Assembly (NCBI GenBank): GCA_027493055.1
Contig: JAPUDO010000080.1
Span: 1-58,938, forward strand
Source: Niabella sp.
GTDB lineage: Bacteria; Bacteroidota; Bacteroidia; Chitinophagales; Chitinophagaceae
DNA: 58,938 nucleotides
Direction: 5' to 3'
Shown: positions 19,121-48,492 of the stretch, one piece after another
How positions within the stretch are numbered: position 1 is the first letter of the stretch
How the letters are laid out: each line of letters starts with the position of its first letter
Program-made: the position numbers and the translations under genes
The notes under the pieces: model-generated
Told to the model about the DNA's origin: nothing
Seen by the model: only the letters and a program-made list of their open reading frames with translations
The model's database searches: none

Positions 19121-19657
19121 TTAAGGAAGCGCTACCCTGGTATCCAACCTGATCCGGCAATTTTCTGTTAGCTTAAGATCGGAAGGCAGAAACAGTGCTT
19201 TGTACTTATTATCTGTAAGCTCAAACGCTTGGATGGTATAAGTATCCGGGTCCGCCATCAAATAATATTTTACCCCGCAAAACTCATAAAGCGCATACTT
19301 CGTATTCCTGTCCTTCAGCCTCGTTGCCCTGGACAATATCTCCACAATTAAAAAAGGCGGTTCGGTGATATGCCCTTCGGGATCCAGGTTACCGCAGGCA
19401 ATTAAAATGTCAGGCCGAACAACATTGGTTTCATCAATGATCCAATTCTTTTCATATAAAACCCTGCAATTACAGGAAGCCTTGTTTTCCCGCAGCATAT
19501 TGTAAAAATAAACATGCAGGTCGCTCCCCATCAATTGATGTTTGTTAAGGGGTGAAGGGCTCATAGCTACGGGAGTACCTTTTATCAGCTCCCAATCACC
19601 TTCCCACAGTTTCCAGTCCTGAACAGTATAAGTAGGTATATATAAATTGGGGATCAT
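19121..19657 (-). CDS. Uma2-family (DUF820) PD-(D/E)XK nuclease-fold protein
   Basis: 178 aa. The N-terminal YTVQDWKLWEGDWELIKGTP is followed by the nuclease-fold core VVRPDILIACG, PPFLIVEILSRATRLKDRNTK and VKYYLMADPD, where Asp, Glu and Lys make the expected PD-(D/E)XK site. The family is abundant in cyanobacteria and Bacteroidota, and its biological role is not settled. A paralogue with the same motifs is encoded at 47953-48492. Terminator-like hairpins lie on both sides. Confidence 0.88.
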   Translation of the reverse strand: MIPNLYIPTYTVQDWKLWEGDWELIKGTPVAMSPSPLNKHQLMGSDLHVYFYNMLRENKASCNCRVLYEKNWIIDETNVVRPDILIACGNLDPEGHITEPPFLIVEILSRATRLKDRNTKYALYEFCGVKYYLMADPDTYTIQAFELTDNKYKALFLPSDLKLTENCRIRLDTRVALP

Positions 19658-31055: not shown

Positions 31056-32630
31056 TTAATTATTATTTGTATTGGCTACTACCACTTTAGAGTAGCTTTT
31101 TGTTCCGTCCTTATCCACCTGCGCTATGCGTACATATATCCTGGAGCCGGAAGCATTTACCTCTACGCCCTGTTTTTTACACCCTGTTATCAGCCATGTG
31201 CAGGCCACTGTTAATAGCAAAACGGGCAGCGCCATCCTGCGCCTTTTACCCACGCCCCATGCAAAAACTGCCAGCAGCGGCATCAGGGCGGTAAGCCCGG
31301 AAAGCATAGTGCCGTTCAGCGATAAAGTAAAATTGTATTCCAAAGCCATATCCGAGTTCCCCTCTTTTGCTTTGGAAACCATAGTGCCCACTTTAGTAAA
31401 GTCTTTCCCGTTAGCAGAAGCTTCTATCTCAAAATAGCTGTTATTTTCTTCTTTAAGGGTTGTAAATTGTACTGATAAAGCATTGCCAACCACTTCAGCC
31501 TGTACGTTGCCAAAGCTCACCGGCAGCACATCATAATCAAACCCAAAAAGCCAGGGCTTGGACTGCCCTGCAACTACATTAAAGCCGCCGCCGCCAAATA
31601 ACCTGCTGCCATCCGTTGCAAGACTATAAACAACGTAATCTGAAATAGGGTTCCAATCAGTAAGCACCGGTGTGCCGGTTGAAATGTCAAAGGAAGCAAG
31701 GCGTTGTCTGTTCTGACCGGCTATCTGGGTAAATATTCCGCCTATATATATCCTGCTCCCTATCTTCGTAAAGCTCAGTACGCGACTATTGGCAGAAGCC
31801 GTCCAGGTAGTAAGCGTTGGAGTGCTGCCTGTAATATCAAAGGAGGCAAGGCGCTGTCTGTTCTGACCGTTTATCTTGCTAAACTCTCCACTCGCGTACA
31901 ATATGCCATCGCTTGCCCAAAGTGTTTGTATGTAACCAATATCCTGAAGGGACCAATCGGTAAGCGCTGGCGTACCGGTTGTAACATCAAAAGAAACAAG
32001 ACGCAACCTGCTCTGGCCTGCTATCTGGTTAAAAGCTCCCCCTACATACAACTTTCCTTCTGCTTCCACTAACGAAAATATAGTACCATTCAGGTCGGGG
32101 TTGGGTGCCCAGCCTGTAAGCGTGGGTGTGGCGCCTGTAATATCAAAGGATACGAGGTTGGTTCTGCTTTGACCATTTACCTGGGTAAACTGGCCGCCTA
32201 CATACAGCCGGTCTGTAGTTGCCAGAATGGAGTAAACACGGTTATTACCGGTAGCGCCGGGGAAATCAACCTCGGGTGCCCAATCAGTAAGAGTACCGGT
32301 TGCCAGGTCAAAGGAAGCAATATGTTTCCTGGATACCCAGTTAACATTTTTAAAATCACCGCCTATATACAACTTTCCTCCGCTAATTGACATACTGCGA
32401 ATAGTCCCGTCAACTGTAGCAAAAAAGGGATGCAGACTGCCATCCGCATTAATACGGGCGATGCTAACCCGCGACTGGCCACCCACTGCTGTAAATTCCC
32501 CGCCTATATAAATGCCTCCGGCCCCATCTGGGATAATGGTGTGCACAGTACCGTTTGGTACCCAGGTCTGCCCCCATCCTGCAGCACTTAATAAAACCAA
32601 AACAATAAAGAAAAATAAACGCTTTATCAT
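31056..32630 (-). CDS. Surface beta-propeller protein with interrupted beta-sandwich and internal lipobox
   Basis: 524 aa. The signal peptide (MIKRLFFFIVLVLLSAAGWG, cleavage near GQT) is followed by about eight propeller-type repeats (residues about 25-365) with the recurring pattern LYIGGxFTxVxGQSRxxLASFD. From LPVSFG (residue 369) a beta-sandwich like that of type IX secretion cargo begins (YFEIEASANGKDFTKVG). After LEYNFT it is interrupted by a hydrophobic helix starting at Met442, the basic KRRR, and a second helix ending LITGC (Cys484). The last strand of the sandwich (YVRIAQVDKDGTKSYSKVV) then closes the protein. The same arrangement occurs in the protein at 37137-38783. It is divergent from the histidine kinase gene, 134 bp away. 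The ligand is unknown. Confidence 0.8.
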   Translation of the reverse strand: MIKRLFFFIVLVLLSAAGWGQTWVPNGTVHTIIPDGAGGIYIGGEFTAVGGQSRVSIARINADGSLHPFFATVDGTIRSMSISGGKLYIGGDFKNVNWVSRKHIASFDLATGTLTDWAPEVDFPGATGNNRVYSILATTDRLYVGGQFTQVNGQSRTNLVSFDITGATPTLTGWAPNPDLNGTIFSLVEAEGKLYVGGAFNQIAGQSRLRLVSFDVTTGTPALTDWSLQDIGYIQTLWASDGILYASGEFSKINGQNRQRLASFDITGSTPTLTTWTASANSRVLSFTKIGSRIYIGGIFTQIAGQNRQRLASFDISTGTPVLTDWNPISDYVVYSLATDGSRLFGGGGFNVVAGQSKPWLFGFDYDVLPVSFGNVQAEVVGNALSVQFTTLKEENNSYFEIEASANGKDFTKVGTMVSKAKEGNSDMALEYNFTLSLNGTMLSGLTALMPLLAVFAWGVGKRRRMALPVLLLTVACTWLITGCKKQGVEVNASGSRIYVRIAQVDKDGTKSYSKVVVANTNNN

Positions 32631-37136: not shown

Positions 37137-38783
37137 TTACTCTATTATTGCTTTTATCACCCTGCTGTATTTATAAGTACCGTCTTTATCCACTTGTTTA
37201 ATCCTAACAAAAACATCGCTGCCGTCATTGATGCTATCCCTGTCATTTTTAGAACAGGAAGCCCCAAAAAGACTTATCCCGATTATTATGGCCGCTACAG
37301 GTAATGCTTTATTTTTCCTGCTAATGAACAATGCCATCAGTGCTATAGAAAGGACAGACAGGCCTAATAATCCCATGTTATTAGCTTCGGCAGTAAACTC
37401 ATAGTTTATAGACACATCAGAATCTCCATCTTTTGCTTTACTGTTTACCCGGCCTATGCTTACAAACTCTTTTCCATCTTTTGAAACCTCAATTTCAAAA
37501 TGGCTATTACCGGTTTCACTTAAAGTAGACCAGTTAACCAAAAGTTGTGTGCCGGATATCCTGGCAGAAACGGGACCAAAATCTACAGGAAGCGCCTGGT
37601 TTAAAGAAAAATAGGTATTAGTAATGGGTTCCTCATTAACGGCAACAGCAATATCTGTATCATTATTATTGTCTGATGCTGTTCCAATTTCTTGTCCCCC
37701 CGGAATGGTTATTCTTATAATATAATTTCCTTTGGGGATATCTCCAAATAAATAATATCCTCCTGCATTGGTGGTAGCGGTGGCTACTTCTGTAGTGCCA
37801 TCTTCCTTAAATAACTTAACAATAGCGCCCTGGAAGCCCGGGCTACCAGGAGCAGCAGCGCCATCTTTATAAACAAAACCACTTACAGATTGGGCGATTT
37901 CCATTGCTTCTGTATCATAGGCACCAATGAATGCCTGGTCGCTGTTACCAGACAGTTCCTGCCAGAACTGCTTTATCTGGCTTACCTCCTCCTCTGTATC
38001 AATACCAAAATCTGCCAGGGAATAGGCAATAAACCGTAGTAAGCGAGTGCCGCTGGGGTTAGTAGTATAAGCTAATCCACTGGAGTTGATAGTATAAAAT
38101 TTGAAATGTCCACGGCCAACACCACCGATGCTGGCAAAACTTACAGACTTTTTATCACCAACTATGTTGCCATTTTCGTCCACAAAATAAAAGAAATCTT
38201 CACCGCCGGGATTCCCCATTTGTGAAATAACTACCACAGGCTGGTTGTATATGCCTCCTGTTGTAATTTTGGATACGGTGTACTTGCTGGGCTGGTAAGC
38301 GGTTCCACTACCTGTTTTAGGCAGGTTATAAATGCCTGTACCCAGATCAAATCCTCTTATACCATCTGTAAGGTAATACTCCATACTGTTATTGGCTAAG
38401 GACACATTGCCCGAGCCGCCATAATTATAACCAACACCCACATAAGTGCTGCTACCTGGCGGTGGAAGATAGGCTACAGGAAATGACCGGTACGATTTTT
38501 TTGCAAAACTGTTACCTGGAACTTTGTTGTCCAGCAAAGCATCATTTACGCCGGTAGTGTAAGTAGTTCCGTTCCATGTAAAAGCCAGCAGGTGATGGCT
38601 GTTACTGGGCATATCGGGCGAAGGCCCCGGGTCCGGATTATCTGCTGTTGTATTCCCATTGGCATACCAGAAACCCCGGTTTTGATAGTTAAAATCTGTG
38701 TAGATACCTGTTATTCGCTGGGCTGAAATATTTTGCAGAAGAAACAAAATAAACAGCGCGGAAAAAAAGTTTTGTTTAGTCAT
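37137..38783 (-). CDS. Surface protein with SdrD/Cna-B-like domain, interrupted beta-sandwich and internal lipobox
   Basis: 548 aa from ATG 38783 (signal peptide MTKQNFFSALFILFLLQNIS, cleavage near SAQ). A unique N-terminal domain (about 25-295; GVGYNYGGSGNVSLANNSME, EDFFYFVDENGN) is followed by an SdrD/Cna-B-like domain (about 300-380; VSGFVYKDGA, GGYYLFGDIPKGNYIIRI). From LPVDFGPV the beta-sandwich (HFEIEVSKDGKEFVSIGRVN) breaks off after INYEFT. A helix (LLGLSVLSIALMALF), SRKNK, a second helix ending LFGASC (Cys about 510) and the closing strand FVRIKQVDKDGTYKYSRVI follow. The module matches that of 31056-32630 position for position. The last Cys has a plausible lipobox, though weaker than in the other protein. 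Confidence 0.8.
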   Translation of the reverse strand: MTKQNFFSALFILFLLQNISAQRITGIYTDFNYQNRGFWYANGNTTADNPDPGPSPDMPSNSHHLLAFTWNGTTYTTGVNDALLDNKVPGNSFAKKSYRSFPVAYLPPPGSSTYVGVGYNYGGSGNVSLANNSMEYYLTDGIRGFDLGTGIYNLPKTGSGTAYQPSKYTVSKITTGGIYNQPVVVISQMGNPGGEDFFYFVDENGNIVGDKKSVSFASIGGVGRGHFKFYTINSSGLAYTTNPSGTRLLRFIAYSLADFGIDTEEEVSQIKQFWQELSGNSDQAFIGAYDTEAMEIAQSVSGFVYKDGAAAPGSPGFQGAIVKLFKEDGTTEVATATTNAGGYYLFGDIPKGNYIIRITIPGGQEIGTASDNNNDTDIAVAVNEEPITNTYFSLNQALPVDFGPVSARISGTQLLVNWSTLSETGNSHFEIEVSKDGKEFVSIGRVNSKAKDGDSDVSINYEFTAEANNMGLLGLSVLSIALMALFISRKNKALPVAAIIIGISLFGASCSKNDRDSINDGSDVFVRIKQVDKDGTYKYSRVIKAIIE

Positions 38784-38977
38784 GAGTAATTCCAGATAAA
38801 TAAAATATTTAAGCAAGAAGATAGCCCCTGCTTAATAAATCAAAAACGGCAAATATAATCTTTTTTTATCATCTGATTTGACGCAATATTTAAGGAGCGC
38901 TTACTGTATGAAGCATTCCCTGCTGTCGGGTAGGTTCGTTACGCGCTATGCGAGGCGTCGTTGCCTCGCATCCCTTC
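38784..38977. other. Intergenic sequence before the repeat A cluster
   Basis: About 195 bp without a gene. A palindromic stretch at about 38941-38970 (GCGCTATGCGAGGCGTCGTT with CCTCGCAT) can form a hairpin. Confidence 0.4.
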
Positions 38978-47650: not shown

Positions 47651-47952
47651 TGTTTAAGTAATTGTTAACCGTAGTAACAAATACGCCTACAAATTAATTT
47701 AATAAAGCAGAAAAAATCCAAAGTTGTTATGCACAGGATGTGAGAAACTTTGGTTGGAACTTTTGAATGCCTGATAATATGGGGAGTTACAAATCAGGTG
47801 TGAAAATATATATTATAACGGCACGCACTTACAAAGAGGCACCGGTTAAGTAAATAAATCCAGATCCGGGTAAGTTACACGGTTTGAAAGTTATACCACC
47901 ATTGATAACCCGCTGGGACAATCTGGCCCGGAAAAAACCGTACCTTTATTAT

Positions 47953-48492
47953 ATGAGCGGCGCTTACAAATTATTACCTCATTACACTTACAAAGACTGG
48001 CTCCTTTGGGAAGGAAAATGGGAGCTGATTGATGGTATTCCTTATGCTATGAGCCCTGCCCCTGTCCCTAAGCATCAAAGAGTGGCCGCAGAGCTCAGAT
48101 ATGAATTTTCCGCAGCTTTAAAAAAAAGCAACTGTGTAAAATGCAGGGCATACGACCCAATAGATTACAAAATAAACGAAGACACCATTTTAATACCTGA
48201 TATACTCATCGTATGCGGAGAAATTCAAAAACCATATCTGGACTTTCCCCCCGCGCTGGTAGTTGAAATATTATCTCCTTCCACTGCTTTAAAAGACCGC
48301 AATACCAAGTTCCAGCTTTATGAGCAGGAAAAAGTGAAATATTATTTAATTGTGGATACAGATACATCAACTGTAGAAATATACCAGTTGGTCAATGATA
48401 AATACGAACCGCAAACCTTTAGTAACAGCGCATTGTTTGAGCTGCAGGAAGACTGTAGCGTCACAGTACAGTTGGCTAATATCCTCTCCTGA
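47953..48492 (+). CDS. Uma2-family (DUF820) PD-(D/E)XK nuclease-fold protein, second copy
   Basis: 179 aa from ATG 47953 (MSGAYKLLPHYTYKDWLLWE). An upstream TTG start at 47884 is possible but adds sequence without family match. The core segments TILIPDILIVCG, PPALVVEILSPSTALKDRNT and VKYYLIVDTD carry the nuclease-fold Asp, Glu and Lys. It resembles the protein at 19121-19657 along its whole length. It is divergent from nrdB. Confidence 0.88.
   Translation: MSGAYKLLPHYTYKDWLLWEGKWELIDGIPYAMSPAPVPKHQRVAAELRYEFSAALKKSNCVKCRAYDPIDYKINEDTILIPDILIVCGEIQKPYLDFPPALVVEILSPSTALKDRNTKFQLYEQEKVKYYLIVDTDTSTVEIYQLVNDKYEPQTFSNSALFELQEDCSVTVQLANILS

Follow-up and report, generated by a model that had tools for sequence, protein, structure and literature searches.

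What two hydrophobic helices and a lipobox-like cysteine do inside a folded C-terminal domain is the question raised by the protein encoded at positions 31056-32630 (minus strand) of Niabella sp. contig JAPUDO010000080.1, a stretch of 58,938 nucleotides that is hereafter called the window. The answer that we hold to be rather probable is that the domain is an FN3-like module with an internal type-II signal, which is lipidated by Lgt and cut by LspA, leaving a 41-residue lipopeptide clasped in the beta-sandwich.

The interrupted FN3-like domain and its copies

The protein is made up of the following parts (pLDDT, predicted local distance difference test):

31056-32630, minus strand: gene for a 524-residue protein with a signal, a DUF5122-type beta-propeller (DUF5122, 1.1e-27) and an interrupted FN3 domain
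32571-32630, minus strand: N-terminal signal peptide, residues 1-20, followed by Gln21 and without an N-terminal lipobox (sequence)
31320-31526, minus strand: portion of the FN3 domain ahead of the hairpin (residues 369-437), with strands A-E (AlphaFold2, pLDDT block means 92-98)
31251-31307, minus strand: helix 1, residues 442-460 (hydropathy; helical in the model, pLDDT about 55-59)
31236-31247, minus strand: basic loop KRRR (residues 462-465) linking the two helices, predicted to be cytoplasmic (sequence)
31182-31235, minus strand: helix 2, putative type-II signal core, residues 466-483 (hydropathy; conservation at position -1)
31179-31181, minus strand: Cys484, the invariant lipobox cysteine (75/75 distinct copies)
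31059-31181, minus strand: predicted 41-residue C-terminal lipopeptide, residues 484-524, comprising a tether and strands F-G (C-x-K/R, motif spacing, model)

Translation and hydropathy confirmed the layout described in the original prediction. The C-terminal domain (residues 369-524, 31059-31526, with the stop codon at 31056-31058) opens with LPVSFG and, after LEYNFT, continues with helix 1 (mean Kyte-Doolittle value 1.82), KRRR, helix 2 ending in LITG, Cys484 and 40 further residues that include RIAQVDKDGT and YSKVVVA. The insert, from helix 1 to Cys484, sits in the loop between strands E and F of the FN3-like domain, and it occupies this one site in the aligned copies. In the AlphaFold2 model, strands F (498-506) and G (517-521) both follow the hairpin, with a pLDDT of about 97 for F and most of G and of 82 for the last six residues. 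The strands after the cysteine are thereby predicted to complete the FN3 fold, as had been proposed, although the part after the hairpin holds the last two main strands and not one final strand. In a structure comparison of the model, both halves of the interrupted domain matched FN3, and an uninterrupted homologue was likewise FN3-like in fold; Foldseek with the hairpin-containing model as query returned nothing at E = 0.001 or below. Over the interrupted domain, the two window proteins that carry it gave no Pfam or NCBIfam hit that reached the cut-off, so that the domain is probably missing from the annotation of proteins of this kind.

The original prediction covered one copy, and a second full copy was found in the window at 37140-37592 (minus strand), with Cys521; the two are 43% identical across the domain. 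Its parts are as follows:

37137-38816, minus strand: second protein of the same kind, with an SdrD_B-like domain and an interrupted FN3 domain; the listed start codon is TTG
37140-37592, minus strand: interrupted FN3 domain of the second protein (profile search, alignment)
37320-37376, minus strand: helix 1 of the second copy, residues 481-499 (hydropathy)
37257-37307, minus strand: helix 2 of the second copy, residues 504-520 (hydropathy)
37254-37256, minus strand: Cys521, lipobox cysteine of the second copy, GAS-C-SK (sequence, copy alignment)

A profile built from the two window domains matched 25 places in the genome from which the window comes (G000, 5.75 Mb). The whole insert and the cysteine were present in 24 of them, and the 25th (L025) was a 75-residue open reading frame (ORF) fragment with the loop, helix 2 and the cysteine. 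Within a set of 30 genomes (17 of the same genus, G000 included, and 13 outside it; E 1e-10), 14 of the 16 other Niabella genomes matched at 2 to 56 places each, the insert being read for the most part at the fetched loci only, and no match was obtained at 1e-10 in the same-genus genomes G007 and G016. Six of the 13 genomes outside the genus matched, over about 65-70 residues only, and the six loci taken from them, one from each, were all uninterrupted. Family-wide at 1e-20, matches came from 5 of 244 genomes, G000 being one of the five, and from 2 of 101 genera; phylum-wide, 2 of 395 genomes (G000 counted) and 1 of 170 genera matched, with at most 15 and 9 candidates per genome scored, respectively. 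The sole carrier in another genus of the family (G265) has the insert, with FS-C-SK at the cysteine. In a scan of named genomes, 77 loci were kept, of which the interrupted ones belonged to Niabella and to a few metagenome-assembled genomes titled Ferruginibacter or Chitinophagaceae bacterium.

The passengers were varied: RCC1, DUF5122, NHL, M43, BNR, SdrD_B and laminin-G domains were among them, and 8 of the 20 that were scanned (own copies L021, L024 and L025 being left out) matched no Pfam family. In four copies (L105, L108, L110 and L121, from N. defluvii and N. hibiscisoli), the reading frame breaks in or just past the basic loop; these breaks are tentatively read as assembly errors, the assemblies being among the least complete of the genus (72% and 83%).

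The cysteine site and the proposed processing

Helix 2 had been likened to a lipoprotein signal placed inside a folded domain, and the comparison of copies bears this out. In 75 distinct copies, which are related and hence not 75 independent events, the cysteine was present in 75, A/G/S occupied position -1 in 72 and K/R position +2 in 74; at the other positions from -2 to -12, A/G/S accounted for 20-45%. The distance from the cysteine to the RIxQVD motif was 16-19 residues. The stretch between the helices held 2-6 K/R and no D/E in 75/75 copies; since it was delimited by its K/R, the informative part is the absence of D/E. The 75 copies are the 76 read minus one duplicate, with two fragments (L025 and L118) kept and with L105-L112 and L121 (early frame break) and L114-L117, L119, L120 and L122-L132 (no hairpin) left out. 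L124, a near-copy of L122, and L131, which is N-terminally cut, were also left out of A3 and A5.

Cysteines near N-termini behind a hydrophobic stretch in the DNA of the genus served as a yardstick, with position +2 left free and with charged residues, N, Q, H and P barred at -1. Of 58 such cases, 36 had A/G/S at -1, and 25 of these had K/R at +2, compared with 1 of the remaining 22; an earlier, different filter had given 28 N-terminal candidates, with 57% A/G/S at -1 and 57% K/R at +2. A pattern survey covered 933 kb and 679 ORFs for cysteines after an uncharged hydrophobic stretch, and the pattern [AGS]C.[KR] was shown by 58 of the 61 such cysteines within the domain, by 31 of the 61 close to N-termini and by 11 of the 63 at other places. 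The last 11 comprised five further copies of the domain, five N-terminal signals just past the 40-residue limit (some of them read from a start that lies too far upstream) and one case in a 125-residue ORF, and removal of the first ten lowers the rate elsewhere to 1/53. These comparisons support the view that helix 2 and the cysteine fit the lipoprotein-signal pattern of the genus despite their position inside a folded domain.

The true N-termini of the hairpin proteins are of another kind. Among 38 hairpin ORFs with a detectable hydrophobic start, A/G/S/T-Gln followed it in 35 and an N-terminal lipobox in 0, which agrees with the Gln rule of Bacteroidetes signals as given in an excerpt of PMC5837995. 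A strict signal-peptide pattern caught 25 of 53 ORFs, and under a looser rule 15 of 53 had no hydrophobic start, some being read as broken starts. The N-terminal signal of the 524-residue protein looks like an SPase I type, and Cys484 of 524 lies far from the N-terminal placement usual for a lipoprotein signal. LspA (PF01252) was present in 16 of the 17 genus genomes, including G000, mostly as one match, with two matches in G007, G016 and G011 and fragments in G002 and G012. An extra LspA is not supported as a dedicated processing enzyme, the two-match genomes being G007 and G016, without a hairpin, and G011, with six hairpin matches. It should be noted that G007 and G016 combine no hairpin match and no GldL match with two LspA matches each.

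Two readings without cleavage bear on these data. Lgt could modify Cys484 while both helices stay, giving a single chain held as a lipid-reinforced hairpin in the inner membrane; both helices would then serve as anchors, and no route for the removal of helix 1 was found. A small residue at -1 is, however, the rule of LspA substrates, and A/G/S at this position in 72/75 copies is the constraint expected if LspA, which the genome encodes, makes the cut, so that we regard an uncut lipidated chain as unlikely. A plain inner-membrane hairpin, in which the cysteine has another role such as a disulfide, would need no lipid at all, since two helices and a basic loop suffice for anchoring; it leaves unexplained the joint conservation of A/G/S at -1, the cysteine and K/R at +2, which is the lipoprotein pattern of the genus, and we judge it very unlikely.

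For the favoured reading, lipidation followed by cleavage, we infer the topology, lipidation, cleavage, non-covalent retention, second cut and final location as follows. The precursor would be exported by Sec through its N-terminal signal until helix 1 halts transfer, the basic loop remaining cytoplasmic and helix 2 spanning back, which would place Cys484 on the outer face of the inner membrane. Lgt would then lipidate Cys484 and LspA would cut before it, and the new 41-residue lipopeptide (C-x-K, tether and strands F-G) would stay bound in the sandwich, tying the ectodomain to a lipid anchor without a covalent bond. That the peptide is retained is argued from the fact that strands F-G are conserved along with the remainder of the domain. 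For the complex to reach the outer membrane, helix 1 would also have to be cut or extracted.

Several points weigh against this scheme. We know of no proven internal LspA substrate, and position -1 is R, C or T in three of the 75 copies. Both helices were modelled poorly, and the AlphaFold2 model represents a single uncut chain. If helix 1 is not released, the upstream chain could be retained at the inner membrane, and no enzyme stood out for such a release: rhomboid counts (4-7 in the genus and 2-6 outside it, with fragments included and subfamilies pooled) were not clearly different, and exosortase exceeded its cut-off in 0 of 17 genus genomes, with one match below it (G011). Neither of these counts points to a dedicated processing enzyme. 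According to an excerpt of PMC5080379, the surface-export signal of Capnocytophaga is C-x-K-(D/E)2; C-x-K matches only part of it, with D/E two residues after the lysine in 40 of 75 copies, and is in any case common among N-terminal lipoprotein candidates of the genus. In Flavobacterium, as stated in part of PMC11885536, a reporter surface lipoprotein reaches the surface without LolA and LolB homologues, which points to a separate surface route in the phylum.

Type IX secretion and the history of the insert

The original prediction had placed the sandwich among those associated with cargo of the type IX secretion system (T9SS). The domain is indeed homologous to the T9SS cargo domain and FN3-like, but the hairpin protein is probably no normal T9SS cargo. 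At 17 uninterrupted loci, strand E runs straight into F, and 89-101 residues follow beyond QVDxDG, with YPNP in 9 of 17 tails and near variants, judged by eye, in the others; interrupted copies end after strand G, without a tail. TIGR04183 tails numbered 0 in G000 (TIGR04131 type B tails were not searched for), 1 in each of G001, G006 and G009, 0 in the remaining 13 genus genomes and from 49 to at least 134 in each of the 13 relatives outside the genus, and SprA at 1e-10 was found in 0 of 17 genus genomes versus 13 of 13 outside. The near-complete lack of these tails, together with that of SprA, is the ground for the above conclusion, and the domain as ordinary T9SS cargo was rejected for the genus, with the GldKLMN operon described below as a caveat.

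One passenger could be followed directly. For the M43-GEVED-FN3 protein L023 of G000, related proteins occur in G017 (44% identity) and G018 (42%), over about 490 residues in both cases. The G017 protein has an uninterrupted FN3 domain and the G018 protein a divergent sandwich, each followed by a T9SS-type tail, whereas L023 has the hairpin and lacks the tail. Random absence of the helices among homologues had been named as a sign against the proposed arrangement; the helix-free homologues instead form a separate group, mostly with T9SS-type tails.

A tree was built from 98 columns of the FN3 body; the columns being few and the bootstrap not settled, it placed 51/51 interrupted rows on one side of a branch with support 100/95, the branch appearing in 99% of 200 bootstrap trees, with the G265 copy left out. 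This grouping favours one insertion that was spread onto many passengers, and independent insertions are not supported by the tree. The G265 copy (L182, G265:C134, minus strand) has the end strands TFYRLKLVNLDG, which are closer to the uninterrupted kind, so that this copy may have branched off early or arisen separately. The copies L073 and L088 nest within the Niabella part of the tree, which suggests transfer to some SprA-bearing genomes. SprA is present in the carriers G265 and the metagenome-assembled genomes of L073, L088 and L089 (the L088 and L089 domain sequences are identical), which argues against loss as the simple explanation.

G000 retains a gldKLMN operon together with a porG-like gene at L176:15202-19883 and L177:65-568 (G000:C62). 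GldK (398 bits), GldM (297 bits) and GldN (117 bits) scored above their cut-offs, GldL just under its own (67.8 against 68.3 bits) and the PorG-like barrel below (76.2 against 130 bits). In GldK of G000 and G008, an SPase-I-type start replaces the lipoprotein cysteine of the G018 protein, three other cysteines of which are also absent, and the two PorG-like proteins have no cysteine at their ends (no PorG of a relative serving as control). An excerpt of PMC12635249 reports that in Flavobacterium Cys343 of GldK, a residue not mapped onto the Niabella sequences, bonds to a cysteine of the PorG tail and that this is required for T9SS export. With the GldK and PorG-end cysteines missing, the operon looks uncoupled from T9SS export, which suggests a motor that has been repurposed or is decaying.

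The retained operon is also what would speak for a different function of the module, namely, a new export signal that replaces the tail and is read by a rebuilt T9SS using GldKLMN, with the cysteine as a docking or lipidation site. Of the genus genomes, 13 of the 15 with the hairpin have a GldL-like match, compared with 0 of the 2 that lack it (kinship ignored). On the other hand, the 99% complete genome G006 gives 13 hairpin matches but none to GldL at 1e-5, and the absence of SprA throughout the genus and the missing GldK and PorG-end cysteines speak against such a machine. Furthermore, the four SprA-bearing carriers lie outside the genus set, and the module is thus not dependent on SprA absence. 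A rebuilt secretion machine is therefore distinctly unlikely in our estimation.

A broader evolutionary scenario based on the lipidated and cut module can be offered tentatively, and we consider it possible but doubtful. After the loss of T9SS in Niabella, an internal lipoprotein signal in a former cargo FN3 domain would have become an anchor and been carried onto dozens of proteins; cleavage by LspA and a second cut at helix 1 would yield two chains, the lipidated strand pair displaying the ectodomain on the outer membrane, possibly with the help of GldKLMN.

Relation to known anchoring systems

The module shares with bacterial lipoproteins a basic n-region, a hydrophobic h-region, A/G/S-Cys and the C-x-K of N-terminal candidates of the genus. 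It differs in that the Niabella signal is internal, behind another helix and within a folded domain, and that cleavage would yield a 41-residue peptide which stays attached to the remaining protein. With the FN3-like T9SS cargo (TIGR04183), it has in common a homologous sandwich, the LPVxF start and the QVDxDG..YS end, as well as an orthologous passenger in the one case tested; the hairpin in the E-F loop, the end of the chain at strand G and the lack of a detected SprA set it apart. In the GAIN domain of adhesion receptors of animals, the chain is cut by autoproteolysis inside a beta domain, and a membrane-linked strand is held non-covalently. The proposed Niabella scheme is alike in the non-covalent strand and differs in having a lipid and not a transmembrane anchor, and no homology is claimed.

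As described in an excerpt of PMC11980579, MYXO-CTERM is a repeated C-terminal module with an invariant cysteine at a membrane helix, for which lipidation and cleavage are assumed. It is similar to the Niabella module as a repeated C-terminal Cys/helix element on many different proteins; however, its layout (a Cys motif, one helix and a basic C-terminus) does not match, as the Niabella module has two helices, with the cysteine after the second, in the usual lipoprotein orientation, and then 40 residues with the strand pair. Helix 1 with the basic cluster resembles the helix and basic end of PEP-CTERM and GlyGly-CTERM, as outlined in the same excerpt, whereas the Niabella helix is not C-terminal, and the genomes have neither an exosortase over the cut-off (17/17) nor a clear rhomboid excess.

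No published description of the interrupted module was found in the PMC literature, subscription papers lying mostly outside that search; PMC6767994 and PMC13211072 name Niabella and, in the excerpts available, hold nothing on the interrupted FN3 module. The interrupted FN3 ends of dozens of exported Niabella proteins suggest an undescribed kind of anchoring via a separate lipid-tagged domain piece. The module is filed here as a new variant of C-terminal membrane-anchoring modules, and the two-chain reading, if shown, would make it more than a variant. If the chain is cut, a lipoprotein signal would be shown to work inside a folded domain and a protein to be anchored through strand complementation by a lipopeptide. 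Such a result would further provide a natural example of a lineage losing a secretion translocon and re-equipping its cargo domains, and in practical terms a split FN3 tag could then attach a lipid anchor without a covalent link.

Some hairpin-domain matches adjoin one another, namely, three at L049 and L032 (G008:C1, about 293825-297552) and five at G001:C5 (about 70173-77412), and are possibly surface-protein arrays. A conserved neighbour gene was rejected, the largest family not recognised as hairpin proteins recurring in only 5 of 53 loci; its first member, L056 (524 residues), came up in the pattern survey as one more copy of the domain. In the window, two small proteins at 19121-19657 (minus strand) and 47884-48492 (plus strand) are similar to each other (IPTYTVQDWKLWEG and LLPHYTYKDWLLWEG, respectively) and presumably resemble Uma2-type proteins.
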